A DNA stretch of 64,000 bases. It comes from Shewanella psychropiezotolerans (lineage in GTDB: Bacteria; Pseudomonadota; Gammaproteobacteria; Enterobacterales; Shewanellaceae). Made by a program: the position numbers and the translations under genes. Location: the NCBI RefSeq assembly GCF_007197555.1, contig NZ_CP041614.1, positions 248,001 to 312,000 on the forward strand, written 5' to 3'. A model generated the notes under the pieces. It worked only from the letters and a program-made list of their open reading frames with translations, searched no databases and was not told the DNA's origin. This document shows positions 745 to 53,848 of the stretch, piece after piece. How positions within the stretch are numbered: the stretch's first letter is position 1; each line of letters begins with the position of its first letter.

Positions 745-3700
745 CTACTTGCTCAGCTTACGTGAATAAACCAAGAGATAGAGGGCTGGTAGTACGAACA
801 GTGATAACAGAGGTGCAGTTACCATGCCACCGACCATAGGTGCGGCGATCTTCTGCATCACGTCATTGCCGGCCCCGGCGCCCCACATGATGGGCAGTAG
901 GCCGAAGAAGATGGTAGCAACCGTCATCGCCTTGGGTCGAATTCGCATCACAGCACCTTCTATCAAGGCCTCTTTCAGATCGCTTACCGCTTCATATTTA
1001 CCTTTCTCTTTTCTATGCTTGATGGCGTTGTTGAGGTAAACCAACATCACCACGCCAAACTCTGCTGCTACCCCTGCTAAGGCTATCATACCCACGGCAA
1101 CGGCAACTGACATATTGAAGTCCAGAGCATATAAGAGCCAGGTACTGCCAACGAGTGCGAATGGTAAGCTGAACATGATCATGCTGGCTTGAATTGTCGA
1201 ACCGAATGTCATCATCAACAAGATGAAGATGACACCCAAAGCCATAGGGATCACTTTTTTCAGCTTTTCATCGACACGCTGCATATATTCATACTGGCCT
1301 GCAAAGTCGTAGCTGTATCTTGGCGGCACTACTAACTCGTTTTCTAAAGCTGACTTAGCTTGATCGATATATTCACCAATAGAGGTTCCTTCTATATCGA
1401 CAAACACCCAAGAGATTAAACGACCATTCTCACTCTTGAGCATAGGGGGCCGTCGGTTATCTCTATATCGGCTAAGTTACGCAGCGGCAGATAATGCCCC
1501 GTCTTAGTGATCACCGGCAGTTCTCTGAGTTTCTCGATATTGTCTCTGAGTTCCCTCGGGTATCTGAGATTGATAGGGTAACGTTCCGCTCCTTGAACAG
1601 ACTCACCAATATCCATACCGCCGATGGCGTATCGGACAACATCTTGGATATCGGTCAGGGTCATGTCATAGCGAGAGGCCACATCTAGCTTAGGTGTGAT
1701 ATCGATATAGCGGCCACCACCTACACGCTCGGCATAGGCCGATTTAGTGTTAGGCAGTTTACTGAGTATGGCTTCGATATCTGTACCTATCTGCTGCAGT
1801 TCATTTACGTCGGCGCCGGTGATCTTGATACCCACCGGAGTCTTGATCCCGGTGGAGAGCATGTCGATACGCGTCTTAATGGGTTGAACCCAAGCATTCG
1901 TCAGCCCAGGTATTTTAACGGTTTTCTGCAGCTGATCTATGACGTCCTTTAGGGTGTATCCTTCACGCCACTCATCTCTGGGCTTGAGCATTATGGTGGT
2001 TTCCAGCATGGTCAGTGGCGCCGGATCCGTCGCCGTTTCTGCACGGCCGACCTTACCGAATACCCGCTTCACCTCGGGGACTGTCTTAATCAACCTGTCG
2101 GTCTGTTGCAGTATTTCGGCGGCCTTACTGGCACTGATACCTGGCAAGGCTGTAGGCATATAGAGTAGATCGCCTTCATCCAGCTCGGGCATAAACTCGC
2201 TGCCTAAGTTGCTCATTGGGTACCAGGCGCTCATCAGGGTGATTAATGCGACTACCAGTGTCATCTTTGGGAACTTAAGTACCAGAGTCAAAGAAGGCTT
2301 GTACAGGGCGATCAGGAACCGACTGATCGGGTTGCTGGTTTCCTTAGGGATTTTTCCTCGGATAAAGAAGCCCATAAGGACAGGCACTAGGGTAATGGAC
2401 AGCACGGCTGCCGCAGCCATAGCGAAGGTCTTTGTGTAAGCCAGTGGACTAAATAGTCTGCCCTCCTGCGCTTCCAAGGCAAATACCGGCATGAAACTCA
2501 GGGTAATGATAAGCAAGGAGAAGAAAAGCGCAGGACCGACTTCGACCGAGGCTTCTGTGACCAGCTTCCAGTGCTCCTTCATATCCGGTCGACGATTATT
2601 TTCCTGTTCGAAATGCTCCAAGTGCTTATGCATATTTTCGATCATGACGATCGCGCCATCGACCACTGCGCCGATGGCAATGGCGATGCCTCCTAAGCTC
2701 ATGATGTTCGCGTTGACGCCCATCTTATTCATGATGATGAATGCAATGAGTATTGCCAAGGGCAGGGTGATCACGGCGACTAAGGTCGAACGTGCGTGCA
2801 TAAGGAACAACATGCAGACCAAGCCAACGACAAACATCTCTTCGATCACCTTGTGGAACAGGTTTTCCACCGAGCTTTCGATCAATTGAGATCTGTCATA
2901 GGTAGGGATGATCTCTACGCCTTCGGGCAGACCAGCTTTGAGCTGTTCTAGCTTCTCTTTAACGGCTTCTATGGTGGCTAAGGCATTTTCGCCGTAACGC
3001 ATGACTATGATGCCGCCGACGACTTCACCTTCACCATCTAGCTCGGCGATACCACGGCGTGATGAGGGCCCTTTACGTACGGTGGCCACGTCTTTGAGTA
3101 ACAAGGGGGTTCCCGAAGGACTGGTTATTCCGAGAGGGATCTCCCTAAAGTCATCCAAAGTTTGACGATATCCTTTGGCGCGCACCATGTATTCGGCTTC
3201 TGCCATCTCGATAACCGAGCCGCCGGCTTCAGAATTCGACTTAGAGATGGCATCTTTTATCGCAGCGATATCTAGCTTATAAATGGCCAACTTATCGGGT
3301 TCTATGACTATCTGATAGCTAAGTTCCATGCCGCCAACAGTGGCGACTTCAGAAATACCGGGAACGCTCTGAAGTTCAAGTTTCAGATACCAATCCTGCA
3401 AACTCTTTAGCTGAGAAAGATCTAAATTCCCCGTTCTGTCCACCAGAGCATATTCGAAGATCCAACCGACTCCGGAAGCATCTGGCCCCAGCGATGGCTG
3501 CACCCCTTGGGGGAGGCTACTACCCACTTGATTCAGATACTCCAACACTCGAGAGCGGGCCCAGTAGATATCTGTGCCATCTTCGAAGATGACATAGACA
3601 TATGAGTCGCCGAAGAAGGAGTAACCGCGAACCGTCTTGGCTCCCGGAACAGCCAACATGGCCGTAGAGAGCGGATAGGTGATCTGATCCTCGACCAATT

Positions 3701-3875
3701 TAGGTGCCTGACCCGGGAAAGGAGTCTTAATAATTACCTGTACATCCGAGAGATCCGGTAAGGCATCCAAGGGTGTATTTCTTAGCTCCTGCACACCCCA
3801 GACGGTGATCATTATGGTGACAATCAACACCATTAATCTCTGTCTTATAGAAGCTTCAATGATTTTTTTAAGCAT
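745..3875 (-). pseudogene. cusA: CusA/CzcA-type heavy-metal RND efflux pump, split by a frameshift
   Basis: This is the inner-membrane proton-driven pump of a tripartite copper/silver-type efflux system. Two adjoining pieces (819 and 232 codons) together have the usual length of about 1,045 residues. The first has the N-terminal helix, the porter loops and the HME-RND signature GAVVDGAIVMIEN near residue 410; the second has the last membrane helices. The frame is lost at a run of five G at 1445-1449 (C on the coding strand). One extra C there restores D-G-P-P-M-L-K-S, the normal continuation. The gene follows cusB and starts inside a short leader ORF. It may be intact in the organism if the run was undercalled. 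The metal is inferred from the family and the copper-like neighbours. Confidence 0.9.
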
Positions 3876-3957
3876 GAGTAGAGCCTCCCGGTATCAAGCC
3901 GTAGTTAGGGATAGTTCTGTTACTAATAGAGGCTTCGTAATTAATATTTTTAAGCAT
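3868..3957 (-). CDS. 29-codon leader ORF overlapping the cusA start
   Basis: A strong GGAGG sequence overlapping the cusB stop codon precedes an ATG at 3957. The ORF encodes MLKNINYEASISNRT and continues to a TAA that lies inside the cusA start (ATGCTTAA). Its first codons resemble those of cusA (MLKKIIEASIRQR), as do the flanking bases, so it looks like a diverged partial duplication of the cusA translation start. The overlap would allow translational coupling of cusB, the leader and cusA. Whether the peptide itself has a role is unknown. Confidence 0.45.
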   Translation of the reverse strand: MLKNINYEASISNRTIPNYGLIPGGSTHA

Positions 3958-3969
3958 GAGCAAAACCTC

Positions 3970-5493
3970 CTAGTGCTGATGACCGCTACTCAGGCGCATT
4001 AAACTGCCCTTGAGACTGGCTTCTGAATCGAGTAAGAATTGACCCGAAGTGATCACGAGTTCGCCTTCGCTCAGCCCATCGAGAATCTCGGCCTTGCCTT
4101 GGCTTAGCATACCTACAGTGACCTTACGTGCAGTAAAACTGTTATTTTCAAGCTTCACTATGACGCGGTTTTCTTTGCCCGTTTGGATCAAAGCCTCTTG
4201 AGGGATCACCAGAACATCTTCGTTGGGGCCCCCGAAGATGTCTATCTTGGCTAAAGTGTTTGGTCTTAGCTTTGTGTTGTGATTTTGAACCACAATTCTG
4301 ACCCGTAAGCTACGGGTCACAGGATCGAGTTCCGGATAGATATAATCTATCTTACCTTCGATGCCCTTGATCCCCATGGCAGGTACAGAAACTTCGGCTT
4401 TTTGGCCCACTGCGAGCCAGCTTTGCTCGTTTTCAAATACATCGGCGATCACCCATACATTAGAGAGGTCGACGACGGACATCACCTCGGTAGCAGGCTG
4501 AATATACATACCATCTCTGATAGTAAGCTCTTTTACTATGCCGTCACTTTCGGCATAGAAGGGGACTCGATATTGAGTCTGTTTCGATTTTGCCAATGCT
4601 TTTATTTGGCTCTTTTTCAAGCCTAGTAATTCTAATCTTAAGCCTGCTTTTCTGAGTAAATCTTCGTAACTGGCATTCTTACCAGTACGTCTCAAGGTGT
4701 CTTGGGCGAGCAGGAAGTCATCCTGTGCATTGATCAGATCAGGTGAGTAGATTTCATACAAGAGTTGGCCCTTAGTGATCTTGTCGCCGACAGATTTGAT
4801 AGTCAGCTTCTCGATCCAGCCGGTAACTCTAGCGTGGATATGATTGATCTTACTCTCGTCATAATCTATCTGGCCTACGGTTTGAACAAACTTCCATAGG
4901 GTATCTTTTTCTACTTTAGCGACTTTTAGGGCCAGGGCTTGTTGCATGCCACCAGAGACATCTATCTGGATCTCTGTACCGCTGCCACCTACCTCGACCT
5001 TCTCCAGGTTCATGCCACAGATAGGACAGGTGCCCGGAACGTCACTGATAATGTGTGCGTGCATCGGACAGACAAACTTGATCGTGGCACCTTCATCGAG
5101 TGAAGCAGGCTTAGCACTGTTAAATACTGTATCAGCAGGAGTGAGTGCCGACTGAGCCGTATGCTCGTGCCCCGATTGGTCTTCCGGGATTGATTCGCTC
5201 ATATTATGGGCCGAGTGATCCATACTCCCTTTCTCTTCCTCCTCCTCTTCCACGAGGAACATGTTACAGATTGAGCAACGGCTACCCGGCTCATGGCTGG
5301 TTTCTTCGGGATGCATAGGACATGAATAGGTTATCGCTTCATGACCTTGTGTCTGGCTATGCTGAGCATGCTCTGTCGCCGGACTCTGGGCAATCAGTGA
5401 CTGAGAATGGACTAACTGGGGTGTCACAACCATAAATAGGCTGAGCAGGTAGGCTAGTTTTTTACGTTTATTGTTCATTTCAAATTGACTCAT
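3970..5493 (-). CDS. cusB: CusB-type periplasmic adaptor with two heavy-metal-binding domains
   Basis: This is the membrane-fusion protein linking an HME-RND pump to an outer-membrane channel. After an N-terminal membrane or signal segment (residues about 11-30) there are two CPM(H)...C..C.M heavy-metal-binding modules, at about residues 57-80 and 141-163, separated by a Glu-rich and His/Met-rich linker. The lipoyl/hairpin/barrel adaptor core follows, for example VTGWIEKLTIKSVGDKITKG. The C-terminus is GHQH. At 507 residues it is longer than E. coli CusB because of the two N-terminal modules. The start has a GAGG ribosome site. It lies 22 bases after the small metal-binding gene and just before the cusA leader, so one operon is likely. 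No CusC-like channel gene is nearby. Confidence 0.92.
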   Translation of the reverse strand: MSQFEMNNKRKKLAYLLSLFMVVTPQLVHSQSLIAQSPATEHAQHSQTQGHEAITYSCPMHPEETSHEPGSRCSICNMFLVEEEEEEKGSMDHSAHNMSESIPEDQSGHEHTAQSALTPADTVFNSAKPASLDEGATIKFVCPMHAHIISDVPGTCPICGMNLEKVEVGGSGTEIQIDVSGGMQQALALKVAKVEKDTLWKFVQTVGQIDYDESKINHIHARVTGWIEKLTIKSVGDKITKGQLLYEIYSPDLINAQDDFLLAQDTLRRTGKNASYEDLLRKAGLRLELLGLKKSQIKALAKSKQTQYRVPFYAESDGIVKELTIRDGMYIQPATEVMSVVDLSNVWVIADVFENEQSWLAVGQKAEVSVPAMGIKGIEGKIDYIYPELDPVTRSLRVRIVVQNHNTKLRPNTLAKIDIFGGPNEDVLVIPQEALIQTGKENRVIVKLENNSFTARKVTVGMLSQGKAEILDGLSEGELVITSGQFLLDSEASLKGSLMRLSSGHQH

Positions 5494-5515
5494 GATGCCT
5501 CATCTCCACTCAAAA

Positions 5516-5929: not shown

Positions 5930-5946
5930 TTATAAATTCCATCATA

Positions 5947-6631: not shown

Positions 6632-6847
6632 AAAGTTTCCAATAATGAGTTGTGGCTAGTCTAACATGAGTAAGTAATAGTGCATTGACAGAATTCACAT
6701 TTATCGACTTTGGCTAGTTGGACTCTTCGATATATCTGCTGATGAATATTACTCATTCAATTTTGCTTCATTAACTGTATTCGGACAATCGTCATCTAGC
6801 CAATTCAATAGGTCTTGATATTGAATTGGCTTAGATTTTATCAAGAG

Positions 6848-7481: not shown

Positions 7482-7979
7482 TTATCCAAATTGGAGGGGG
7501 TTAAACGTTGCGAGGTCTGCGGTCTGCGTCGACCATGATAGAGTCTGAACTTTACCACTGGATTCTGGTGATGACAGAGAAAATTGAGCTTGAATTAAGA
7601 TGCCACTAGCGCTGGCACAGTGAGAGATACATCCTCCTGCGCCCATCATCTCGCATAGGGCATCACAGTCGATAAGAATGTCGCTATCACTCGTCGACAT
7701 ACTAGCGACCATCATGTCACATTCTTTCTCCCCATGGGTCATAACCATCTCAGCTTTCGAGCCTGTGTCTGAATCAGAGAAATATGTAACTTGTGATTCG
7801 ATCGTTGAACTCTGTAGGGCTTGGCCCATGGACATCTTCATCGGTATATTTGAACTGTCCATCTCTGACATATGAGCATGAGTAAATGCGTGCAAAAATC
7901 TTGGCATAGCCATCACTGGTGTAAGCATAAATTGCCCCACTAAAGAGATGATTAATACAAGATGTGTAATTTGCTTCAA
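7482..7979 (-). CDS. Exported Met/Cys-rich protein of unknown function, TTG start
   Basis: A 165-residue protein whose family I do not recognise. An in-frame TAA lies four codons before the TTG at 7979, and no ATG follows until well inside the signal peptide, so TTG is the likely start. The signal peptide MKQITHLVLIISLVGQFMLT is followed by Met-, His- and Cys-containing segments (AFTHAHMSEMDSSNIPMKM, CDMMVASM, CDALCEMMGAGGCISHC). Position and composition resemble the exported gene at 6191-6631, so metal binding or sensing in the periplasm is a reasonable guess. Confidence 0.6.
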   Translation of the reverse strand: MKQITHLVLIISLVGQFMLTPVMAMPRFLHAFTHAHMSEMDSSNIPMKMSMGQALQSSTIESQVTYFSDSDTGSKAEMVMTHGEKECDMMVASMSTSDSDILIDCDALCEMMGAGGCISHCASASGILIQAQFSLSSPESSGKVQTLSWSTQTADLATFNPLQFG

Positions 7980-8959: not shown

Positions 8960-8994
8960 GCCTTAAAGCTTAGTGCCGATACAGAGTAACCTTG

Positions 8995-13314: not shown

Positions 13315-14074
13315 ATTAACCGATGTCAAAGTGATACGTGGTGAACGTACCATTTTGGATATAGATGCCCTACAGATAGATCCCCATGCCCTCACTGTGG
13401 TGCTGGGCCACAATGGTTCCGGCAAGTCGACCTTGGTCAACCTGCTCGCTAATCAGTTTCCCCCAGAAGAAGGCGAGGTAACATTAGCGGGTAAGCCACT
13501 CATCAGTTATAGCCCCAAGCGGTTAGCACAAATCGTGGCTTACTTGCCACAAAAATTGCCTGAAGTGGCAGGGCTGAATGTGGCAGAATTAGTACGCTTG
13601 GGGCGCTTCCCTTGGCGCGGTGCTTTAGGACGCTGGCGTAAAGAGGATGATGAGATCATCGCTCAGGCCATGGCGGAAACCGGAGTCGAGGCGTTTAAAG
13701 ATACCTTAGCCGATCAACTTTCCGGTGGTGAGCGTCAACGAACTTGGGTCGCCATGTTGCTGGCACAACAGGCTGATTTGTTGATACTGGATGAGCCAAC
13801 TTCGGCCCTAGACATTCATCACCAATATCAATTGATGGAGCTATTGAGTGAGTTAAACAAGAATACAGGCAAGGGCGTGATCGTCATCCTGCACGATCTC
13901 AACCTAGCTTTGCGCTTCGCGACTCAGATAGTGGCGCTTAAAGCGGGCAAGATAGCCTTTAAAGGGGAGGTGGATGTTTTGCTCGATGAGCAGCTGCTAT
14001 CAGCTCTCTACTCGACCCCCGTCAGGCTTATCGATCATCCGGAGCTAAATCATAAGGTCGCGGTCGTATGCTAG
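13307..14074 (+). CDS. fhuC: Siderophore ABC transporter ATPase (FhuC/FecE type)
   Basis: The 255-residue ATP-binding subunit of an iron-siderophore importer. It has Walker A GHNGSGKST (residues about 35-43), the signature LSGGERQR, and Walker B LLILDEPTSALD followed by the H-loop VILHDLNLA. It overlaps both neighbours, which indicates tight coupling within the receptor-fhuF-ATPase-binding protein-permease operon. The gene order after the receptor matches E. coli fhuACDB, so hydroxamate siderophores are likely substrates, though this is only inferred. Confidence 0.92.
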   Translation: MYELTDVKVIRGERTILDIDALQIDPHALTVVLGHNGSGKSTLVNLLANQFPPEEGEVTLAGKPLISYSPKRLAQIVAYLPQKLPEVAGLNVAELVRLGRFPWRGALGRWRKEDDEIIAQAMAETGVEAFKDTLADQLSGGERQRTWVAMLLAQQADLLILDEPTSALDIHHQYQLMELLSELNKNTGKGVIVILHDLNLALRFATQIVALKAGKIAFKGEVDVLLDEQLLSALYSTPVRLIDHPELNHKVAVVC

Positions 14075-28749: not shown

Positions 28750-29388
28750 GGATAATTACCTGGAATTTAGTACCCATAGTGTACCCCTATTCACTTTAAA
28801 GGAAAATAATTAGCCCTGATAACAGCTTAACAGGTGCATTACCCTCTCAATTTTTTCTACGTCAGAGATGTTGAGATTATGTATTTAATTAGCTCTAAAC
28901 TCTTGGGGTTTAGAGCTAGGTCAAAATAAGTTTTCCTGCTGGTGTGCTTATTATCATAGTTGATGAAGCTATTAAGACCTCGGGTGCCTAATCACATGTA
29001 TAGTTATAAAAATCTTAATTTATAACTAATTATTAAAAATTTGAACTTCATCATTTGGTATCCCTTAAGTGGTAATTTAGGTTTAACATCTTGAACCTCA
29101 AGTATTAACATTAGCTAGGTACTGTCTCGTTTGAATTTTATTCATAACCTTAATATTCATTGGTTTACGTATAATTGTACTATGTGGTGAATAAGATTCA
29201 TTATTAATTGAATCTTGTTCGAGTTCACATTTTTCGTTTATTCATTGAGCCTATCTCAAATTTGTTTCTGACCTGTTTAACAATCAAGAATTAGTACTTG
29301 TTTACCTTAGAATATTGACAATCTTAACTGGTTAACTCCTGTTCAAATGGTGAGTTAATCATTGTGTTAATTATGTAAGGTTCGATTA
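28750..29388. other. Long divergent intergenic region between menD and dmsE
   Basis: About 640 AT-rich bases. It holds an inverted repeat at 29189-29220 (separate entry). Close to dmsE there are several TTAA-containing repeats, such as GTTAATCATTGTGTTAAT near 29353-29370, that could be ArcA- or CRP/FNR-type sites. I see no gene in it. Confidence 0.5.
29189..29220. promoter_or_regulatory. Inverted repeat upstream of the dms operon
   Basis: Arms GAATAAGATTCA and TGAATCTTGTTC pair at 11 of 12 positions around an eight-base centre, 169 bases before the dmsE start. There is no T-tract, so an operator is likelier than a terminator. I cannot name the protein that binds it. Confidence 0.4.
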
Positions 29389-30337
29389 ATGATCTCTCAT
29401 CTCTTGAATAAGGTATTAATTGGGATAGTCACACTTATGTGCTTATCTCTTAGTGCAAATGCCACCCCTGGAATCATCTCCCTAGTGAACAACTTGAGCA
29501 CAAATTAGCAGAAAAATTCTCGGCTGGTGAATATTCATCGAAAGGCGCCGATTCCTGCTTGATGTGTCACCGAAAAAATGAAGCCGTAATGGCGATTTTC
29601 GATGGTACCCACGGCATGATGAACAATAAGCAGTCACCAATGGCTGGCTTACAATGTGAAGCCTGTCATGGTCCTCAAGGAAAGCATAACAAAGGTGGCA
29701 AGGAGCCGATGATCGCCTTCGGTAAAGACAGTAAACTGTCGGCCTCTGCTCAAAACAGTGTTTGTCAGGGGTGCCATAACGATCCTAAACAGATGGCCTG
29801 GCACAGCAGTACCCATAACCTCGAAGAAGTGGCATGTTCCGACTGCCATACTCTGCACAGCGCCAAAGACCCTGCTTTAGATAAGCTCAGTGTTAATGAC
29901 ACTTGCACTTCGTGCCATACCAAAGAGAAAGCCGATATGAATAAGCGCTCATCTCACCCGATGAAATGGGACCAGATGACCTGTATCGATTGCCATTCAC
30001 CTCATGGTTCTATGAGTGAAAGCGCCCTGAATAAACCGACGATTAATGACACCTGCTATTCATGTCACAGTGAAAAGCGTGGCCCTGTGTTGTGGGAGCA
30101 CGCACCGGTTACCGAGAACTGTGTCACCTGTCACAACCCTCATGGCAGCGTTAATGAAGGCATGCTGAAGAGTCGTGCGCCTCAACTCTGTCAACAGTGT
30201 CATGCCCCGATGGTCATGCCAGTCGAGTTGTGCAGGAACCAGGAATGGATGCCTTCGGTGGTGGTAAGAGTTGCTTGAATTGTCACAGCAAGATCCATGG
30301 TTCTAACCATCCGTCAGGCAGCTTGCTGCAGCGCTAA
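29389..30337 (+). pseudogene. dmsE: DmsE-type periplasmic decaheme cytochrome with two frameshifts
   Basis: DmsE (MtrA family) carries electrons from CymA to the outer-membrane DMSO reductase complex. A signal peptide starts at ATG 29389 (MISHLLNKVLIGIVTLM). The frame breaks at CCCC 29465-29468, so the translated centre (29559-30278) lacks a signal. A second break at CCCC 30205-30208 removes the last heme. Adding one base at each restores [16 protein letters not shown]... and [19 protein letters not shown], and gives ten CXXCH sites in all (CLMCH, CEACH, CQGCH, CSDCH, CTSCH, CIDCH, CYSCH, CVTCH, CQQCH, CLNCH). Taken literally, the protein would be non-functional; a sequence error is as likely. 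Confidence 0.9.
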
Positions 30338-30351
30338 TAGGGAGCAATATT

Positions 30352-32361
30352 ATGAGATTTAAACTCAATATCATCACTGTGTCGCTCTTGGCCGTCTCAA
30401 GCTCGGCGATGGCCACAAACTTCGGTGTTGGTAACGCCAATATTGACTCGATCAATATGGATAAGTACCAGTGCAAACGCTGCGTCTCAACCAATGGCTA
30501 CCGCGGTGAAGTCACGGTCTCTGCGGGTTATAACTCAGTAGACGATATCCATGCCGGCAATGCTCTGGGAACCGCTGAAGATGGTGCCATCGCTGCGGTA
30601 AGTGGTGACATTCGCTACCAAAATGAGACCGGGTATCAGGCTCAAATGCAAGCGCATCAGTTAGGCATGGACAATGGCTTTGTCAATATCAAGGTGGGTA
30701 AATCAGGTCTCTATGAACTGGAGTTGGATTATCAATCGCTTAAGAGTTATCAGGCGGGCGATGCACAGAGTCAGCTTTGGCATAACGATGGGATGTTAAC
30801 ACCCAGCGCCTATACCAATGAATTTGATCTAGCGCTAAAGCGCGAGAAGTCGACGATAGGCTTCAATTATGGAGAGGGAATTTATAACACCTTCATCCGC
30901 TATAGTCAGGAAGATAAAACGGGTCATCAATCGAGCAGCTTGGTAGCCCCGAGTCCGGTCAATTTTGGTTTGCCTGTCGATGCCACCACTAAGCAGCTCG
31001 ATGCAGGAGCATCGTTAGCCGGTGATAACTGGTTAACTGAGTTGAGCTATTTCGGTAGTTATTACAGCAATAACATCACAGATCTCAGTCTGCCTCATAT
31101 GAATGATGTCTATTCGACAACCCCGGATAATCAGGCTCATCAGGTTTCACTCTCAGGCCAGTATCAGCTTAATCGCACTGTGATGAGTGGTCGTTTGGTG
31201 ACAGGACGGATGATCCAGGATGATGCGCTTATCCAGGTGAGTGGTAATCCACTGCAAAGTTGGGATGGGCAGATTGATACCTTGGATGGTCGTTTTACGG
31301 TGACCTCTATGTTGAGCAATCGCTTGCGATTAGGCGCTCGCGTCGATTACAGCAAACGCGATAACAAGAGCTCAGTGTGGGAGTTTACTCAGTACAGTTA
31401 CAACGGCTTAAGCGGCGCGTTTAAACAAAATGTGCCTCAGGACATCGAACGCAACACCTATAAGATCAATGCCAGCTATCGTTTAGCCAGTGGTTACCGT
31501 CTACAAGCGGGTTATGACAGAAAAGAGGTCGAGCGTAGCTATAGCGAGCGTGAACAGACCAATGAAGATAGCCTGTGGGCCAAATTTAATGTCAGCGCCT
31601 TCGACCAGTTTAACATCAACCTGAAAGCCAGCCATGGTAATCGCGGTGGCTCGGATTATGAAGTTAACCAGATCACCTCATCCGAAGAGAACGCCTTGAT
31701 GCGCAAGTACTATCTTGCAGACCGAAAGCGTAATGCCGTTGAGCTTAAGATTAATCACTCACCTTTATCCTGGGTGAGCATCGAGGTTACAGGGCGTTAC
31801 GCTAAAGACGATTATGACGCTACCGAGATCGGTCTGACTGAATCGGAAGACTTTGGCTATGACGTCAATCTGAGTCTGCAGTTTAGCAAGCATCTGTCGG
31901 CTTACGGTTTTGCCGGTCAGCAGTGGATCAACTCGGAACAAGCTGGTAGTCAGAGCTTTTCGAGCCCGGACTGGAACGCCGATATAGAAGATGAGTTTAT
32001 CAATATCGGTGCCGGTTTTAGCTATGGCGGCTTGATGCAGGACAAGCTCACCTTAGGTGGTGATTACTTGTTTAGTAATTCAATCAGTGACACCTCGGTC
32101 GGGGGCACCCTAGTCACGGCCAATAGTAGCCAGCCATATGGTGATTACTTTTCTTATAACCACAGCGTGCGCATGTATGCCGATTATGCCTTGAGCAAAC
32201 AGATGGCATTGAAGCTGAGTTATCAATACGAACGATATTACGACACAGATGCGGCTCAAGTCGCGACGAATGCTGTGCCGGGGCTAACCACGTTAGGTGA
32301 GCTTAACCATGACTATAACGCACACCAAGTGATGTTGTCGTTTAGCTATTTGTTGCGCTAA
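30352..32361 (+). CDS. dmsF: DmsF, MtrB/PioB-type outer-membrane porin
   Basis: A 669-residue beta-barrel that sheathes the decaheme cytochrome through the outer membrane. It has a signal peptide (cleavage near AMA-TNF), then the MtrB-family CXXC near the mature N-terminus (YQCKRCVST). A long run of amphipathic strands follows, ending in an aromatic-rich C-terminal strand (VMLSFSYLLR). It follows dmsE by 14 bases and precedes dmsA by 34 in the order known from Shewanella. Confidence 0.94.
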   Translation: MRFKLNIITVSLLAVSSSAMATNFGVGNANIDSINMDKYQCKRCVSTNGYRGEVTVSAGYNSVDDIHAGNALGTAEDGAIAAVSGDIRYQNETGYQAQMQAHQLGMDNGFVNIKVGKSGLYELELDYQSLKSYQAGDAQSQLWHNDGMLTPSAYTNEFDLALKREKSTIGFNYGEGIYNTFIRYSQEDKTGHQSSSLVAPSPVNFGLPVDATTKQLDAGASLAGDNWLTELSYFGSYYSNNITDLSLPHMNDVYSTTPDNQAHQVSLSGQYQLNRTVMSGRLVTGRMIQDDALIQVSGNPLQSWDGQIDTLDGRFTVTSMLSNRLRLGARVDYSKRDNKSSVWEFTQYSYNGLSGAFKQNVPQDIERNTYKINASYRLASGYRLQAGYDRKEVERSYSEREQTNEDSLWAKFNVSAFDQFNINLKASHGNRGGSDYEVNQITSSEENALMRKYYLADRKRNAVELKINHSPLSWVSIEVTGRYAKDDYDATEIGLTESEDFGYDVNLSLQFSKHLSAYGFAGQQWINSEQAGSQSFSSPDWNADIEDEFINIGAGFSYGGLMQDKLTLGGDYLFSNSISDTSVGGTLVTANSSQPYGDYFSYNHSVRMYADYALSKQMALKLSYQYERYYDTDAAQVATNAVPGLTTLGELNHDYNAHQVMLSFSYLLR

Positions 32362-32395
32362 GGCGCAGTGCGGAAAATCGCAAGAGGAAATATTA

Positions 32396-34924
32396 ATGGA
32401 ACGTAGAAGTTTCTTAAAAATGAGTGCAGCCATGGGCTGTGCAGCAAGCGTAACGGGTTGTAAAACCAGTTCAGACGATGCCAATGTTGTGCCGCCAAAG
32501 CCACCAGTAGGCGACGAGCAAATTACCTGGTCAGCCTGTCTGGTTAACTGTGGCTCTAACTGCCCGGTTAAAGTGTTTAGCCGTGATGGTGTTATTACTC
32601 GCGTTGAAACCGATCACGATGTGGTCGATGGCGATGATATTTATCAAGTGCGCGCCTGTGCCCGTGGTCGTTCACTGCGCCAGCGCACCTATGCCGTCGA
32701 TCGCTTAAAAACACCGATGAAGCGTGTTGGTAAGCGTGGTGAAGGTAAATTTGTGCCTATCAGCTGGGATGAAGCGGCAAAAACCATAGGCACTAAGCTA
32801 ACGTCGGTGATTGCTGAGCATGGCAATAAAGCCATCTTCCGTAGCTATGGCTCGGGGGCTTACTATGGCTTCGCTTCTAATGCCTGTTTTAACCGTTTAT
32901 TTAACTTAAGCGGTGGCTGCCTGAATGCCTATGGTAACTACTCCTGGGCGCAGCAGATGGAAGCGGCTAAGCATACCTTCGGTACCGGTAGTACTTCAGG
33001 TTCATCGACGGTGACTCTGGCAAACAGTGACCTTCTGTTAGGTGTGGCTTATAACCCAAGCGAGGTCCGCCAAAGCGGCAGTGGCGAAGGCTATGACTAC
33101 TTAAAAGCGCTGCAAAAAAGTAACGGTCTGAAAGTGGTGATGATTGACCCTCGCTACACCGACTCTATGTTAGGTAAGGAGTCTAAGTGGTTGCCCATCC
33201 GTCCGGGTACCGACGCAGCTTTTGCTGAAGCCATTGCTTATCAAATGATTAGCTCGGGTTGGGTCGATCAGAACTCACTCAGCTTTATTAACCAATATGC
33301 CGTCGGTTTCGACGCTGCTTCTATCACTGCGCAACAAGAACTTTTTGCTACGAGTGGTGATGCCACCAAGCAAGAATACGCGAAGGTGATGAAGCCTGAA
33401 GAAAACTACCGTGATTATATCTTAAGCCAAGGTATTTACGCCGAACAGCCGTTGAAGACGCCCGAGTGGGCCGAAAAAATCACTGGTATTCCGGCTGCGC
33501 AGCTTGAGCAAATTGCCACCGATCTACAAAACGCTAAGGCGCCATACATAGTCGTGGGCGCCGGTGTTAACCGTCAGGCCAATGGTGAGCAAAGCATGCG
33601 CGCTCTGTACATGCTGTCTGTATTAACGGGTAAGTTGGGCACCTTAGGCGCATCGAACGGTGAGCTGCCATACATGAGTGGTATGTACCGTGCCGGTATT
33701 CCAACGGGTAGCAACCCGGTTAAAGAGAGTATCTCATTCTTTACCTGGTCTGAAGCGATTCATAACGGCGAAACCATGACTGCGCGCAGCCACGGCGTTC
33801 GCGGAACTGACGGCCTGGATACGCCACTTGGCACCAATATCAAGGTCATTATCTCAGCCTCAGACAGCTCGCTGCTGAACCAGCACGCCGAGATCAACAA
33901 CACCGCTAAGATTTTAGAAGATGAAACGGGTGTTGAGCTGATTGTCAGCTGTGATTGTTGGATGACTCCTGGGGCTAAGTTTGCCGATATCATTCTGCCC
34001 GATACCAGCTGGTTAGAGTCAAATGACCTAGTTAACGACAGCTACGCCTCAGGTGCGCTGGGTTACATCACAGCGATGAAGTCGGCGATTGAGCCTATGT
34101 GGGACTGTAAGTCTATGTATGAAGCGGCAGCGCTCATCGCTAAGTACATGGGTTGTGAGGCTGAATTCACCGAAGGTAAAACTGAAGAGCAATGGCTCGA
34201 AGAGTTATATCAGAAGACCAAAGACAGCAGTAAAAACCTTGGCGTCGTGCCAGCCTTCCCGGCGACTTATAAAGACGCGCAAAAGGTCGGTTTCTTCCGT
34301 AAAAACATGAACGACAAGCATGTTGCCTTGGAAGGTTATATCAAGGGCGGTAAAGCACTGTCGACGCCAAGTGGCAAGATTGAGATCTACTCAGCCGAGC
34401 TCGCATGGCGGGCGGCTAACTGGGATCAAGAAAATAGTGTCGACAACCCGACCCAAGTTAAGGGGGACACTATCACAGCAATTCCTCAGTACACGGTGAC
34501 TTGGGATGGGTATGAAGATGAAGACACTAACATCGATTACCCAATTCAGTTAGCGGGTTACCACACTAAGGGCCGCACCCACTCTAGCTACCACAACGTG
34601 CCTTGGTTACGTGAAGCGGTTGAAGATGCGGTTTGGGTGAACCCGATGGATGCAGCAGAGAACGGTTTAAGCGCTGGCGACAAGATTGAGATGTATAACG
34701 AGCGTGGTTCGATTGCCGTTAAGGTTCGCATCACTCCACGTGTCGCACCTGGTGTGTTCGCGCTAGGTCAAGGTGCTTGGTTTAAGCCTGGTAATACGGT
34801 TGGTAGCACGGGTCACATCATAGATGAAGGCGGTGCGATCAATACGCTAACCCGCTATCAGCCAAGCCCTGTTGCTAAAGGCAATCCACAGCACACTAAC
34901 CGTGTTGCAATTAGAAAGATTTAA
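32396..34924 (+). CDS. dmsA: DmsA, molybdopterin subunit of DMSO reductase
   Basis: The 842-residue catalytic subunit that reduces DMSO to dimethyl sulfide. The N-terminus combines a twin-arginine-like motif (ERRSFLKMSAA) with a lipobox-like SVTGC, fitting export of a folded lipoprotein to the cell surface. The [4Fe-4S] ligands are CLVNCGSNC plus a later CARGRS. The GNYSWAQQ segment aligns with the region holding the Ser that binds Mo in DmsA. The C-terminal cofactor-binding domain is complete. No dmsC membrane anchor follows. Confidence 0.95.
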   Translation: MERRSFLKMSAAMGCAASVTGCKTSSDDANVVPPKPPVGDEQITWSACLVNCGSNCPVKVFSRDGVITRVETDHDVVDGDDIYQVRACARGRSLRQRTYAVDRLKTPMKRVGKRGEGKFVPISWDEAAKTIGTKLTSVIAEHGNKAIFRSYGSGAYYGFASNACFNRLFNLSGGCLNAYGNYSWAQQMEAAKHTFGTGSTSGSSTVTLANSDLLLGVAYNPSEVRQSGSGEGYDYLKALQKSNGLKVVMIDPRYTDSMLGKESKWLPIRPGTDAAFAEAIAYQMISSGWVDQNSLSFINQYAVGFDAASITAQQELFATSGDATKQEYAKVMKPEENYRDYILSQGIYAEQPLKTPEWAEKITGIPAAQLEQIATDLQNAKAPYIVVGAGVNRQANGEQSMRALYMLSVLTGKLGTLGASNGELPYMSGMYRAGIPTGSNPVKESISFFTWSEAIHNGETMTARSHGVRGTDGLDTPLGTNIKVIISASDSSLLNQHAEINNTAKILEDETGVELIVSCDCWMTPGAKFADIILPDTSWLESNDLVNDSYASGALGYITAMKSAIEPMWDCKSMYEAAALIAKYMGCEAEFTEGKTEEQWLEELYQKTKDSSKNLGVVPAFPATYKDAQKVGFFRKNMNDKHVALEGYIKGGKALSTPSGKIEIYSAELAWRAANWDQENSVDNPTQVKGDTITAIPQYTVTWDGYEDEDTNIDYPIQLAGYHTKGRTHSSYHNVPWLREAVEDAVWVNPMDAAENGLSAGDKIEMYNERGSIAVKVRITPRVAPGVFALGQGAWFKPGNTVGSTGHIIDEGGAINTLTRYQPSPVAKGNPQHTNRVAIRKI

Positions 34925-34938
34925 GAGACTCGTTAATT

Positions 34939-35616
34939 ATGACTCAACCAACTCAATATGGTTTTTATGTAGACAGCACTAAGTGTACTGGCTGTAAGGC
35001 ATGTCACGTGTCTTGCAAAGACCGCCAAAGTAACGAAATTCGTAATAATAGTAACCCAGAGGGTAATACCTTACCTGCACTCGAGGGCGTAACCTGGCGC
35101 CGCGTGTATGAGTACGGTGGCGGAGAATGGACTAAGGGTAACAATGGCTGTTTTGAGCAAAATGTATTTGCTTATTATATGTCTATTGGCTGTAACCACT
35201 GCTCCGAGCCAGTATGTGTTAAAGCTTGTCCTACCGGTGCTATGCATAAACGTCGTGAAGATGGTCTGGTTCACGTGGCGTCTGAGCTGTGTATCGGTTG
35301 TGAGAGCTGTGCGCGTGCTTGCCCGTACGATGCACCGCAAATTGATCGCGATCGCAAGGTGATGACTAAGTGTGATGGTTGCTTTGAGCGAATCGCCGAC
35401 GGTCGTAAGCCCGTATGTGTCGAGTCTTGTCCGCTACGAGCTTTGGACTTCGATACTATGGATAACCTTCGGGCTAAGTATGGCGATGGAGACGGCCATA
35501 TTGCACCGCTACCCTCACCTTCAATCACTTCACCTAACTTGATTATCAAGGCAAACGTCAATGGCCGCCCGGCTGGCAGCGGTGAAGGGCAAATATTAAA
35601 TTTATCGGAAGTTTAA
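34939..35616 (+). CDS. dmsB: DmsB, four-cluster iron-sulfur subunit
   Basis: A 225-residue electron-transfer subunit. Four [4Fe-4S] binding groups are visible: CTGCKACHVSC, CNHCSEPVCVKAC, CIGCESCARAC and CDGCFERI with PVCVESC. It has no signal of its own and is expected to be carried out of the cell with DmsA. It lies 14 bases after dmsA; an intrinsic hairpin follows before the chaperone gene. Confidence 0.96.
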   Translation: MTQPTQYGFYVDSTKCTGCKACHVSCKDRQSNEIRNNSNPEGNTLPALEGVTWRRVYEYGGGEWTKGNNGCFEQNVFAYYMSIGCNHCSEPVCVKACPTGAMHKRREDGLVHVASELCIGCESCARACPYDAPQIDRDRKVMTKCDGCFERIADGRKPVCVESCPLRALDFDTMDNLRAKYGDGDGHIAPLPSPSITSPNLIIKANVNGRPAGSGEGQILNLSEV

Positions 35617-35622
35617 TTGTTT

Positions 35623-35648
35623 ATGGCGCCCATGTGGCGCCATTTTTA
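35623..35648 (+). terminator. Intrinsic hairpin between dmsB and dmsG
   Basis: Stem ATGGCGCC / GGCGCCAT with loop CATGT, then a short T-run. It lies inside an otherwise continuous operon, so it may reduce expression of the two genes behind it rather than stop it fully. Confidence 0.7.
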
Positions 35649-35661
35649 ATGAGATGTAATT

Positions 35662-36321
35662 GTGATATCAGATAGCGTAAATACTTATTCAGATCTGCAG
35701 GCTATAGCACGAGTGCTGCATAATGTTCTGTTGGATTACCCCTGTGAAGTTTCGATTGACGGTTTTGCTGAAAATGAACTTGGTGACACCTGGCCTAGCC
35801 TAACTAACTCGGCAGAAAATCAGCAAGGCAAAGTGCTGCTTGATAGCTTTTTGGCAAAGTGGAACTCAGAACAGATAAATGAGTTAAAGCTTGATTATGG
35901 TCAGCTGTTTTTTGGTCCAGGAGAGCCGACAGCTATGCCATGGGGCTCAGTATATCTGGGCGAAGAGCAGTTACTGAATGATAAATCAACGGTCGCCTTG
36001 ATGGCGTTTTATAAACACAATGGGATTAGCTTTGATCTAGCGCAAAACCAGCCACTGGATCATATTGGACTGTTTTATGCAGTACTTGATCAGCTGTTAG
36101 GTCAGCTAGTCGCAGATTCAAATAATAAAGCTGTGTATGAAACTATGGTGATCTTGATGCAGCAACATATGTTGCTTTGGTCCGGACGCTGTTTAGAGTT
36201 AGCTCTTGAGCACGCAGAAACAGATTATTACCAAGCCATTGCATTATTGGCGCTAGATTTTCAATCGGTATTGAGTACAGAGCTAAATATTATCCCTGTA
36301 TCTGCTCGCTTATTTAAGTAA
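35662..36321 (+). CDS. dmsG: DmsG, TorD-family maturation chaperone
   Basis: A 219-residue all-helical cytoplasmic protein. The segment LDYGQLFFGPGEPTAMPWGSVYL carries the F-GPG-x-PW pattern of TorD/DmsD chaperones, with a later DHIGL motif. Such proteins bind the twin-arginine leader and help insert the molybdenum cofactor into DmsA before export. Position after dmsB matches Shewanella dmsG. Confidence 0.88.
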   Translation: MISDSVNTYSDLQAIARVLHNVLLDYPCEVSIDGFAENELGDTWPSLTNSAENQQGKVLLDSFLAKWNSEQINELKLDYGQLFFGPGEPTAMPWGSVYLGEEQLLNDKSTVALMAFYKHNGISFDLAQNQPLDHIGLFYAVLDQLLGQLVADSNNKAVYETMVILMQQHMLLWSGRCLELALEHAETDYYQAIALLALDFQSVLSTELNIIPVSARLFK

Positions 36322-37602: not shown

Positions 37603-38873
37603 ATGGATCAGATAAAGGGAACAATTGGCCGTTGGCAGGGGGCGGGTTTGATGGCAACCACGTTATTGGGGACAGGAGTATTTGTCTTACCTCAGATGAC
37701 GATAGCGACGGCAGGTAATGACGCCTTAATCGCATGGCTTTTGCTAACCCTTGCAATTATCCCCGTCACACTGGTTTTTGGTCGATTAGCCGGGGCTTTT
37801 CCCCATGCAGCCGGACCTGCATATTTTGTCGAGAAGGCATTCGGTCGAACGGCGGGTCGAACCATAGGACTTATTTTTCTCTTGGTGGTGCCACTCGGTG
37901 CCGCCGCAGCTATCTTAATGACATTTCAATTTGTCGAGACCATGGTGCCCGTATCTGGCTGGAGTGAGGTCGCGATGCAGTTGGGCTTGCTAGTTGTGCT
38001 GTTTTTGCTTAATTTCAGAGGCATACATGTTTCTGCTAAGCTGCAATTTGTACTGACAATCGCCATTGTCAGTGTCGTGGTCTTGATGTTTGGCGCGGGG
38101 GATTGAATCTGCATAAGCTGGAGTCTATATCTGCTGGAACATCGAGTGATGCCGGCTTAATCATGGCGGCTGCGGGTATCGCTTTCTGGAGCTTTTTAGG
38201 GGTGGAGGCCATGACTCATTTGGCCAATGACTTTAAAGATCCCAAGAAAGACATGATCCCAGCCATGATGATAGGCACTGTCTTAGTGGGAGTCGTTTAT
38301 CTCGCGTGTACCGGACTCTTGCTAATGACTCAAGTTGATACCGGCGCAGGGGCAGGCTTAGCCATGGTAACAAGTTTCGATAGCTTGCTTGGTGGTTATG
38401 GTGCTCAAGTGATTGGTGTCTTAGGAATCGCCGGTGGTTTAGCGACTGTAAATGTGTATACCGCCAGTGTTTCGCGCTTGTTGTGGAGCTTTAGCCGGGA
38501 GGGGATACTTCCTGGTTATTTTGCTTCAATCAACCGCCATCAGGTTCCGGTTAGGGCGCTGTCCGCCGTGTTGCTCACCATGGCGTTGGTCATTGTCTTA
38601 ACTTATGTTTTGGATCAGGAACTTGAACATCTGATCGCATGGAGCAATGGGGTGTTTGTTATCATCTATCTGATGTCTATGCTTGCTGCGGCTAAGCTTC
38701 TGAGCAAGCGTTACTTACCCTTAGTGGCGGTAGGGAGTCTGTTCTGTATCATGCTTGCTTTTGCCTTGGGCTCGAGCATGTTATATGCGGTGATCATGAT
38801 CTTAGTGGTCGCACCTATATTATGGTGGCAGAAGAAACATCTTTCACGTAAACAACTGCTGCAAACTGCTTAG
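37603..38873 (+). pseudogene. yjeH: YjeH-like amino-acid exporter (APC family), split by a frameshift
   Basis: An inner-membrane transporter related to E. coli YjeH, a methionine and branched-chain amino-acid exporter. The first part (37603-38106, 167 codons) has LMATTLLGTGVFVLPQM and the first helices. The second (38103-38873) continues with FWSFLGVEAMTHLANDFKDP to the end. Together they are about 423 residues, the family length. The break is at five G, 38097-38101: one extra G gives FGAGGLNLHKLES without a stop. Either an undercalled base or a real inactivation. Confidence 0.87.
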
Positions 38874-46370: not shown

Positions 46371-46477
46371 TAGTTATTCCTTAAAGGAAATTCAGTTCTG
46401 AAATTATACCATTTCTGTTCATAACATCACTGAGCTAAAATTTGGCCATAGAATAATGCTACATCTTGAGAAAAATA

Positions 46478-47679
46478 ATGCGTCGAAATCTGTTACCCAT
46501 ACTCATGTCTATGGTGGTACTAAGTCCATTAGCCATAGATATCTATCTACCCTCTATGCCGGCGATGGCTGCCGAGTTTTCTGTTTCATCGAGTGAAATT
46601 CAATCGACCTTAGTGCTGTTCCTATTCGCTATGGGGGTGGGGCAAATTCTCATTGGCCCACTAGCGGATCGTTATGGACGTCGTCCTATAGCTATCTTCG
46701 GTATTTTACTCTACATAGCTAGCAGCATATTTGCGGCCATGGCCATGGAGTTTCATTGGTTGCAGTTGGCCAGAGTACTACAGGGGCTAGCGGCCTGTTC
46801 AACATCGATCGTGGTCTTCAGTGCGGTGCGAGATTGCTTCACCCCTAAAGAAGGTGCGCGATATTATAGCTATCTCAATGGTGTTATCTGCGTGATCCCT
46901 GCATTGGCTCCGACTCTGGGTGGTTTGTTGGCGTTGCAGTTTGGCTGGCGCTCGACCTTCATCTTTATGACGCTCTACGCCATAGTGATGATGTTAGTCG
47001 TAGGATACCGTCTACCGGAAACCCGACCAGCTAATACTGTTACCACAGGCCCTCTTTACCGTTGGTCACGTTACAAGCCTGTACTGAGTGAGCCCCATTT
47101 CATGTTCTATGCATTATGTTGCATGGCTGGAATGGCGGCGATTTTGAGTTATGTTTCCTATGCGCCAGTTTGGTTAATCGAGCACTTGGGCATGTCAGAG
47201 CTGGCCTTCAGCGGGCTGTTTGGTCTCAATGCTGCCGTCAATATAGCTGCCTGTTTCCTGGCTCCTATGGTGATAAATAAGTTAGGCAATCGTCCTACTG
47301 TTATCCTGGCACTGAGAATCATGTTGCTATCGGCAGTGTCGCAGGTTCTGGTTCAGATCTGGGGGCCACAAGCAGGGCTGGCAGCGGCATTTAGCTTTAT
47401 GCTGCCTATGATGCTGCTCTGTATCGGTTTTGCCCTACTGCTTGGCCCTGCAACGAGCATGGCTCTGTCGGCATTCGGCGAGCGAGCCGGAACAGCAACG
47501 GCCATGCTTGGATTCATTCAGATGAGTGGCGCCTCTCTATTGGCCGGACTTGTACAACAAACGGATCTGACGGCTCCCTATGCAGTTGCGCTGGTGATGG
47601 GGGGTTAGCTATTATGTTATTAGTTATGTTGGCCATACCGCGTTTAGATCATTGGCATCAGGAGCAGCATGCGCACTAG
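46478..47679 (+). pseudogene. Bcr/CflA-type drug efflux MFS transporter, frameshifted near the end
   Basis: An inner-membrane proton-driven pump with the family opening SPLAIDIYLPSMPAMAAEF and the motif LADRYGRRPIAI after helix 2. ATG 46478 is preferred over a TTG four codons upstream. Translation stops at 47608 within the last helix. One extra G in the run of six G (47599-47604) lets the frame continue as LAIMLLVMLAIPRLDHWHQE to TAG 47677-47679, completing twelve helices. This looks like an undercalled base; otherwise the protein lacks its last half helix. Confidence 0.85.
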
Positions 47680-48511: not shown

Positions 48512-48578
48512 TACCGATTGATATAATAAGCTTCTTTATTTGTTAGGGCCGACAGCATCTTTTTATAACAGTCTTGGC

Positions 48579-50702: not shown

Positions 50703-51234
50703 ATCCCTGTTTATCGTTTAGGTGTTAATTCAGTTAAAAATGCATTGTATCTATTAGCACAAGATTACAGCAGGATTAAAAATAACCTTATTTCCTCAGT
50801 TACTCAAACTTGAAATGCATTTTTATAATATATAACCGATATTTAGATGATTTCCCCCTGCATTTTTTGCTAGGACTTAAGGTTAAGATACAGTTTAAAT
50901 CGTACTCTGCTCTTGGGGGAGAGCTTAGAGGAGTTTATTTTCGATCATTTAGGGGCTAGTTTATTTCTTATTCGGCATAAAGATTCGACGCCCTAGATCC
51001 ATTGCTCTGTTGTGAGCTGCCTACAATAGAGGTAACCGAGAGACTTCCCCTTAAAAACCTGCGCCAAGCCAGAATAAATGTTGATAAGGAGTTCGCTTTC
51101 AACCGGGCTATCTGTTTTCCAAGCCTCTATCTAGGGGGTAATTTATTGCGTTTTGGTATGAAAGCCATCAAGCTTATGTTCAGCAAAATGATAATACCGA
51201 TATGCCTGATTTATATGCTCTCAAGGAGGAGTGA
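50703..51234. other. Intergenic region without supported genes
   Basis: About 530 bases between the divergent PAS-GGDEF-EAL gene and the small exported protein. A 78-codon frame at 51002-51238 has no recognisable features. I see no structured element that I can support. Confidence 0.45.
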
Positions 51235-51597
51235 ATGATATCTAATAGAAGTTACCGTTTCAGTCTGAAAGCCTGTGTATTTGGGGCGGCTTGTTTATTT
51301 CCCTCAACTTTCTCCATGGCATCAGACACTCAAAGTTTGTCTCAAAAAGCCGATGCGGCACGTGAACAGTCCCAAAAATTGGAGCTCGAACAGTTACAAA
51401 AAGCCAGGGATGCAGCGGGCGAAACACAAGCGCGAGAGAAAAAAATCTACAAAAAAATGCAACCAAATGACTGGGAAGCCGAACAGAGAGTTAAGGCGAA
51501 AAAGCAATTTGTTGAGCGCGAGTCTCGCGAGGGAAAATACCTTAGAGAGGCGAGGGAAGCGGCCTCAAAAGAACGGAAAATACCAAAACCTTTTTAA
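51235..51597 (+). CDS. Small exported, highly charged protein of unknown function
   Basis: A 120-residue protein with a signal peptide (KACVFGAACLFPSTFSMA) followed by a Lys/Glu/Gln-rich helical region of about 90 residues that could form a coiled coil. A strong AAGGAGGAG ribosome site supports translation. No family recognised. Confidence 0.65.
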   Translation: MISNRSYRFSLKACVFGAACLFPSTFSMASDTQSLSQKADAAREQSQKLELEQLQKARDAAGETQAREKKIYKKMQPNDWEAEQRVKAKKQFVERESREGKYLREAREAASKERKIPKPF

Positions 51598-51618
51598 AGC
51601 TAGCTGAGTAAAATGTAC

Positions 51619-52332
51619 TTATTCAGACTGTTTTAGCAAGTGATTGAGAATCACTTTTTGTACAAAAATCTCAGCCTCACTCTGGGGGCTGTTTATGATA
51701 AACCCATATTGGAGCTGTTCTTTGTCATGTTCGATTCCAATTGCATTCTTAACTGTGATCGACATGGATAAAGTTTCCATGTCTGGCATGATTTTAACCT
51801 GAAGCAGGTAGTTGCCTTCCTTTTCTATTGTGTCATTATTTTTGCAGACAAAGGCCCCACCCTTGATTGATATATCGCTTAAATTTCCATGTGCCAGAGG
51901 CTTAGCCTCAGCGCTATTTCCGCTTGCTTCACTAGATGCAGGCCTGAGTAACGATTCAACATTTATAGAGATTCTAGAGTGTTGTCTAAGCGCTACTTTT
52001 TGTATCTCCTTAGGATAGTCTACAAGCAACCATCGTCCTGAACCGTTGATGAGTTTTTGGATACAGGTTTTAAAGGCAATCACATTAGCATCGGGTTCAT
52101 CAGTTTTGACAATGCGTATGATGACTCCCTGATCTTGAACAATAAAGTCACTAGCCTGTTGCCAAAGCTTGTCAGAGCCAAGGGCCAATATTATGGATAC
52201 ATGTGGATCTACACCGACAAGCCTAGTTCGTAATCGTATAGGCTGAGTTGGGGTTAGGATCTGAATATGCACCTCAGTATTACAGGCAATATTATCTAGA
52301 TAAGAAAATTCGTAAGCTTGTGATTGAGGCAC
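51619..52332 (-). CDS. YcgR-like PilZ-domain protein, c-di-GMP receptor
   Basis: A 237-residue protein with an N-terminal YcgR-type domain and a C-terminal PilZ domain. The c-di-GMP binding elements are present: RQHSR (RxxxR, near residue 117) and LSDISIKGGAF (DxSxxG). Proteins of this kind slow flagella or tune surface attachment when c-di-GMP rises. No flagellar genes are adjacent. Confidence 0.82.
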   Translation of the reverse strand: MPQSQAYEFSYLDNIACNTEVHIQILTPTQPIRLRTRLVGVDPHVSIILALGSDKLWQQASDFIVQDQGVIIRIVKTDEPDANVIAFKTCIQKLINGSGRWLLVDYPKEIQKVALRQHSRISINVESLLRPASSEASGNSAEAKPLAHGNLSDISIKGGAFVCKNNDTIEKEGNYLLQVKIMPDMETLSMSITVKNAIGIEHDKEQLQYGFIINSPQSEAEIFVQKVILNHLLKQSE

Positions 52333-52536
52333 TTGTTACTCTCCATTTTTCTATTTAAACCATAGCGTATAACTTTGAATTGATGTTTTTTTTTGGCTAT
52401 AAAACCATTTTTAGAACCAATAAAAATTAGAAGTGTAAGGGTGTGGTCACGCCTGTTCGCTTGAAATTACAGCGTTTTTAGTTTCTTATACAGGGAGATT
52501 TCAGGAAGAAAAATAAGGCGTAGATAGGGGAATAAT

Positions 52537-53848
52537 ATGCTAAGAATTAAAAATTTTATTTTGTTCGTTAGGTTTTCATTAGCTGCATTTTTTACGTGCT
52601 CGGTTTTATCAGTTGTTCATGCAAAGGAGCTGATAGATACCAAGAGTTTGGCTCAAGAGGTTGAGAGTGAAGTGATATCTTGGCGACGAGATCTTCATCA
52701 GTACCCAGAGCTCTCAAATCGGGAGTTTCGAACCAGTAAGATAATTGAGAAGCACTTAATCTCCTTAGGATTAGATGTTAGAACCGATATCGCTCATACA
52801 GGCGTTGTTGGCATTCTTAAAGGAGGTAACTCAGGTCCTCTGATTGCGCTTCGCGCAGATATGGATGCTCTGCCTGTGAAAGAGGAGGTAGATCTTTCTT
52901 TTGCATCTAAGGCGATAGATACCTATCGCGGACAGAAAGTAGGGGTGATGCATGCCTGTGGCCATGACACTCACGTCGCTATCTTAATGGGGGTGGCTCA
53001 GAGTCTGGTTAAGGTCAAAGAGCACTTACATGGTGATGTGATGTTCATCTTTCAGCCTGCTGAGGAAGGAGCACCAAGCGGTGAAGAGGGGGGGCCGAAC
53101 TTATGCTGAAAGAAGGATTATTTTCAGAGAGGAAGCCTGAACAGATATTCGGTCTACATGTCACCTCCAGCATGCCTACTGGCATGATAGGTTTGCGATC
53201 CGGGCCAGCAATGGCTAGTGAAGATTCTTTTACTATCACCGTTAGCGGCAAGCAAACTCACGGCTCCCGTCCCTGGAATGGAGTAGATCCAATTGTGGCA
53301 GCGGCGCAGATCATTAATGGTGTACAGACTATCATAAGTCGACAAGTGGATGTGACAGCTGCACCAGCTGTCGTGAGCTTTGGTGCAATAAATGGTGGCA
53401 TTCGTTCGAATATCATCCCCGATAAGGTGGAGCTCATCGGTACCATAAGAACCTTCGATCAAGATATGAGAGCCGATATAAAGAAGCGTTTAGCAAATAC
53501 TGCCTCATTGATAGCCGAGAGTATGGGGGCTAGCGCTAGGACAGTGATACAGCAAGGCTATCCCGTCACAGTCAATGACCCTGAGCTAGTGCAGAAGATG
53601 GAGCCTGTTTTACTTGGCGTGGTCGGGGAGAAAATGTTGATAGAACCGGGTTTGATCACTGGGGCTGAAGACTTTTCCTATTATGCGTTAGAAACACCTG
53701 GCATGTTCTTTTTCCTCGGGTAACACCTGCAGGGACAGATTATAAGATTGCTCCAAGTAATCATTCTCCGCGTTTTTATGTCGACGAGAGTGCGTTTGTC
53801 ATAGGTGTGGAAGCATTGACTCAGTTAGCAGTGACATCACTTAGATAA
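52537..53848 (+). pseudogene. M20-family amidohydrolase with two frameshifts
   Basis: An exported metal-dependent amidohydrolase (N-acyl-amino-acid type). A signal peptide is followed by IALRADMDALPVKEE and the metal-binding VMHACGHDTHVAI. The frame breaks at seven G (53088-53094), where one more G restores EEGGAELMLKEGLF. It breaks again at GGG 53718-53720, where one more G restores FLGVTPAGTDYKIAPSNHSP to TAA 53846-53848. The repaired protein has about 436 residues, normal for the family. As written it would yield only fragments. Both are single-base losses at G runs, so error or phase variation must be considered. Confidence 0.87.

Follow-up and report, generated by a model that had tools for sequence, protein, structure and literature searches.

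One-base deficits at G/C runs fragment genes in the Shewanella psychropiezotolerans genome sequence and most probably reflect consensus undercalls

The first closed genome of Clostridium autoethanogenum was reported to contain about 240 erroneous deletions in 4.35 Mb, ascribed to PacBio undercalls (PMC4687164), and the Kastor report describes gene-fragmenting errors in long-read bacterial assemblies (PMC12007338). For S. psychropiezotolerans YLB-06, a published account puts the coding density at 77.28% and the number of active genes below that of strain MTB7 (PMC10059138). Among open-licence PMC titles and abstract openings concerning the species, the strain, or homopolymer or frameshift errors in Shewanella, a fault of this kind was not reported for YLB-06.

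We analysed a window of 64,000 nucleotides, bases 248001-312000 of the one-contig S. psychropiezotolerans genome (6,449,204 bases); feature positions are those of the window. ORFs of fifteen relative sources were aligned to the window by tblastn, and a scan for non-triplet gaps was run on the same DNA. The relatives include G073, which we take to be S. psychrophila WP2; G123 and G125, presumably S. violacea DSS12 and S. woodyi, respectively; and G110, which is strain MTB7. A wider comparison set 464 kb of chromosome around the window against 480 kb of G073, together with four housekeeping clusters from elsewhere, and mean identity to G073 over the compared genes is 89%. The compared ORFs were taken mechanically, with a minimum of 100 aa around the window and of 60 aa for the housekeeping clusters, and some of them are spurious; they total 390 ORFs and 366,177 bases, and the reverse test of G073 covers 392 ORFs and 361,170 bases. 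The dnaA/origin pair contributed no compared genes. A plasmid search returned matches spanning only 1-3% of the query.

A candidate row was defined as an isolated gap of 1-2 bases, separated by 25 bases from other gaps and from either end of the ORF, and was accepted when each side of the gap carried at least three differences, with at least half at third codon positions. Each break was credited to the longest run lying no more than about 3 bases from the aligned gap; for a few rows the run adjoins the gap. An initial indel listing with loose gaps gave 228 events in S. psychropiezotolerans, mostly alignment noise, and was replaced by this stricter rule.

Comparison with intact relatives bears out the preliminary description of the window, which had listed seven frame breaks in five genes, each one base short at a G or C run, with A/T runs intact and no case repaired by a deletion (Table 1). 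Specifically, at each of the seven sites the relatives have a single protein, the window has it in two or three frames, and the step between frames is one missing base by tblastn; the statement on A/T runs and deletions holds within the window genes. For the window alone, seven of seven breaks in the short direction correspond to P = 0.016. Two one-base gains relative to G073, at 6638 and 17427, fall shortly before ORF starts of the window itself. An eighth break, absent from the earlier list, lies in a small gene and is seen as a non-triplet gap against all five relatives (one base in four of them, two bases in one). The C-terminus of this gene in the window is unlike those of G073 and G015, and the break fails the codon-position rule, being too near the gene end.

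Table 1. Genes of the window with frame breaks
Feature	Position	Strand	Frame breaks
CusA/CzcA-family heavy-metal efflux RND pump (cusA)	745..3875	-	two frames, break at G5 1445-1449
Small gene, no NCBIfam match	7482..7979	-	near 3′ end, at G5 7496-7500
DmsE-family decaheme c-type cytochrome (dmsE)	29389..30334	+	C4 29465-29468 and C4 30205-30208
YjeH-type L-methionine/branched-chain amino acid transporter	37603..38873	+	G5 38097-38101
Bcr-type pump (name from the preliminary description; putative family assignment)	46466..47676	+	near 3′ end, at G6 47599-47604
M20-type amidohydrolase	52570..53845	+	G7 53088-53094 and within 53711-53720

The cusA orthologues of G073, G123, and G028 are single ORFs of 1043-1058 aa that align in two frames; the intact G073 copy matches TIGR00914, and the DNA gap is present against all three covering relatives. 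The gap in the yjeH-like gene, whose intact G073 copy matches PRK11021, is present against six of eight covering relatives, as is the gap in the Bcr-type pump, whose intact relative copies are 400-404 aa long. The intact G028 copy of dmsE matches TIGR03508; by DNA, the upstream gap is present against six of eight covering relatives and the downstream gap against all eight, and a later alignment of seven of those eight places both gaps in all seven. Sequence related to dmsE also occurs elsewhere in the genome. Block 28909-36273, which comprises dmsE and the genes that follow it, is strain-variable: it is missing from the alignments of G073, G123, and G014, which jump from about 28760-28783 to about 36870, and is present in G028, S. 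canadensis, and S. atlantica.

The M20-type copies of G110 and G125 align with the window in three frames, the G125 copy matches TIGR01891, and on either side of each break most differences fall at third codon positions. The gap at the G7 run is present against both covering relatives in the DNA. The second break is missing from the DNA gap listing and is based on the frame change in both relatives and on a separate alignment. Its gap falls in G3 53718-53720 for one relative and in the T run directly before it for the other; G3 is the better site because the window keeps the relatives' frame through position 53717. Region 52527-53840 is not in the G073 and G014 alignments at this spot and has about 75% DNA identity in G110 and G125.

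The wider comparison yielded 43 rows for S. psychropiezotolerans, of which 20 pass the acceptance rule and 23 fail. One passing row, a break beside an A run of 2 in a hypervariable flagellin stretch (77% identity), was removed by hand as a misalignment. The remaining 19 breaks, accepted across 390 ORFs (366 kb) against relatives, are all one base short, and all lie at G/C runs. Tabulating indels at G/C versus A/T runs, a check that the preliminary description had proposed for the whole assembly, confirms the bias over these ORFs: 17 of 236 G/C runs of at least five bases are broken, versus none of 837 A/T runs of that length (P = 4e-12), and no gain is accepted. The chance of a break climbs with the length of the G/C run as read: 1 of 4494 runs of 3 bases, 1 of 876 runs of 4, 10 of 207 runs of 5, 6 of 26 runs of 6, 1 of 2 runs of 7, and 0 of 1 run of at least 8. 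At most accepted sites G073 has, by eye, a different base opposite the gap, indicating that substitutions extended the run in this genome alone. As an extrapolation from 19 breaks in 366 kb of compared ORFs, roughly 250-300 such breaks would be expected over the whole assembly, on the assumption that a share of 0.8 is coding.

Of the 23 failed rows, 10 are one-base gains here and 13 are one-base losses; the bias towards losses would be weaker if every one of the 10 gains were real. The 13 failed losses are six rRNA rows (two sites, each met three times); one T6 loss, in a cytochrome c ORF and probably upstream of its true start; three G/C-run losses, including the eighth break of the window and a sugar isomerase that passes in the mirror test; the mirror image of a G073 break in an EF-Tu-like gene; and two others.

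The same test applied to G073 as a control gave 25 rows, of which two were accepted: the mirror image of the dTDP-sugar isomerase break here, and one break of its own. The gene with that break is presumably EF-Tu; at this site (L118, about base 13767) G073 has one extra, not one missing, base relative to S. psychropiezotolerans. In a separate DNA alignment of the two genomes (50 blocks, 283,099 columns), isolated one-base gaps were counted. Within ORFs, 17 gaps at G/C runs of at least three bases are short here, one of them an rRNA site, versus none in G073; at A/T runs, four are short here and five in G073. Non-coding gaps at G/C runs lean the same way, weakly, with eight short here versus four in G073.

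Ten rRNA operons were found and compared in S. psychropiezotolerans; the 16S gene count published for YLB-06 is 12 (PMC10059138). At the level of single copies, eight bases are missing, six at G5 or G6 runs and two, ambiguous, beside short C or G runs. Specifically, the sole G6 run of 16S is short of a G in two copies and a G5 run of 16S in one; for 23S, the sole G/C run of 6 is one base short in two copies and a G5 run in a single copy. The two ambiguous losses, both in copy L125, lie beside C3 and G2 runs, where the run would be longer with the allele seen in another operon of the same genome (C4) or in G073 (G3). By run length, losses affect 2 of 70 copy-instances of G/C5 and 4 of 20 of G/C6, and none of 17 A/T runs of at least four bases in the ten operons is affected. 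Operon L123 (G000:C1:50300-55900) carries four of the eight losses, a clustering that suggests errors in locally poorly covered stretches. All 10 of the 16S copies are distinct with gap columns included and 9 without them, so most of the reported 16S variation consists of substitutions.

As controls, nine G073 operons have no gap column in 16S and one in 23S, and ten G125 operons have three in 16S and none in 23S. The 11 16S copies of MTB7 (G110) have 19 gap columns, several at G/C runs; 23S was compared in 6 of its 11 operons. All 11 MTB7 16S copies (operons L143-L153) differ, and 10 are distinct without gap columns. The MTB7 assembly was made with Illumina and nanopore reads (PMC10059138), and a small part of its reported rRNA diversity may come from sequencing error.

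The 464-kb sample is too sparse at long runs to show a depletion, and G runs of at least seven bases were therefore counted over whole genomes, on both strands. S. psychropiezotolerans has 84, and G073, G123, G028, and G125 have 162, 106, 107, and 110, respectively. Scaled for length, these four relatives predict 135 runs (P = 1.4e-6), and the rate of the poorest of the four predicts 118 (P = 6e-4); the depletion amounts to only about 40%. G110, which also has 110 such runs, was excluded from the expectation because of the many gaps in its own rRNA copies. The G073 runs are unevenly divided between strands (49 forward, 113 reverse), unlike those of the other five genomes counted.

Outside the window, mraY, murB, tilS, and lpxD, named by NCBIfam from the intact G073 copies, are among the genes with accepted breaks. 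In whole-genome searches, each of the four is represented solely by a pair of pieces that abut or overlap and lie in different frames. An extra, weak lpxD match at 28% identity is probably lpxA, and the single stop within a tilS piece falls at the final residue, the match there having extended beyond the break. A further broken housekeeping gene is hldE. In Escherichia coli, mraY, murB, lpxD, and tilS are essential, and a cell in which all four were truly broken would not be expected to grow. The breaks are thus blind to function, affecting genes expected to be essential and rRNA.

On the sequence comparisons, the breaks are almost certainly consensus errors of an incompletely corrected assembly, in which G/C runs were called one base short, more readily in longer runs. 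The consensus of what is presumably a long-read assembly would have lost one base from G/C runs, more often as the run lengthens; the raw reads would be predicted to show the longer runs; and the living strain most likely carries intact genes. The preliminary description had read the breaks as systematic homopolymer undercalls, which the one-sided direction, the exposure of G/C runs only, the broken single-copy essential genes, the rRNA copies, and the depletion of long G runs all support. The comparisons do not support the alternative it had offered, a mutator history or multi-gene phase variation: the affected loci include rRNA and genes expected to be essential, none of the gains passes, and A/T runs are spared. 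We count against consensus errors the short-run breaks of dmsE and of the second M20-type site, the limited depletion of long G runs, the two rRNA losses off long runs, the 10 failed gain rows, and the weakness of the non-coding lean.

It is improbable, though the least so of the alternatives, that a few breaks are genuine and recent gene losses of the deep-sea strain, obscured by several hundred false breaks; the two short-run breaks of dmsE would be the most plausible candidates. The C4 breaks of dmsE and the second, G3, break of the M20-type gene belong to a class of runs otherwise rarely broken, and dmsE has two of them. In the middle and 3′ segments of dmsE, a gene not selected by the acceptance rule, differences from all seven relatives lie mainly at third codon positions; its 76-base 5′ segment gives no clear codon-position signal. 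The third-position pattern, which for the other breaks formed part of the acceptance rule, indicates that selection on dmsE either continues or ceased only very recently. As judged from these alignments, the dmsE breaks would be either errors too or a very recent loss.

A mutator history, with slippage at G/C runs through defective mismatch repair and true loss of many genes, is highly unlikely. The window breaks are unseen in the relatives examined, as such a history would have it, and slippage also favours runs, G/C over A/T. However, slippage yields gains as well as losses and strikes long A/T runs, whereas every accepted break here is a loss and no A/T run of at least five bases is broken; in addition, the single-copy genes that are essential in E. 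coli are broken, and so are rRNA copies.

Equally slight is the chance of multi-gene phase variation, in which G/C tracts would act as on/off switches of genes. Transporters are among the affected genes and G tracts are well-known sites of switching, but phase variation typically uses long tracts in surface or regulatory genes. The tracts here are only 3-7 bases as read, mraY, murB, tilS, lpxD, hldE, and rRNA are affected alike, and the tract is not conserved, since G073 has a different base opposite the gap at most accepted sites.

That the short runs are real and that transcriptional slippage or ribosomal frameshifting restores the proteins is hardly credible: it would account for the selected look of the dmsE middle and 3′ segments, but it leaves the missing bases in single rRNA copies and the long-run depletion unexplained, and, against programmed frameshifting, relatives encode the same proteins in one frame and do not share the split.

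The breaks are thus very probably an ordinary assembly artefact and no real biological feature. Pseudogene counts, coding density, and missing pathways drawn from this YLB-06 sequence would then overstate gene loss, and false frame breaks may explain part of its published figures for coding density and active genes.

Compared with the described cases, the breaks differ from those of C. autoethanogenum in how they were recognised and in the bases involved: Illumina and Sanger reads decided there, whereas here comparison with relatives is the sole means, and the sites given in that report include T as well as C, whereas the accepted breaks here are all at G/C runs (PMC4687164). The Kastor assemblies, as described, are nanopore MinION assemblies, whereas for S. 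psychropiezotolerans the platform, PacBio or nanopore, is presumed (PMC12007338). The resemblances are close in both cases. As in the C. autoethanogenum account, where one-base losses number in the hundreds and are mostly at homopolymers, false frameshifts fall in survival-relevant genes (PMC4687164); as in the Kastor cases, where most errors follow four to five equal bases, the deletions are tied to homopolymers and come to light through reference relatives (PMC12007338).
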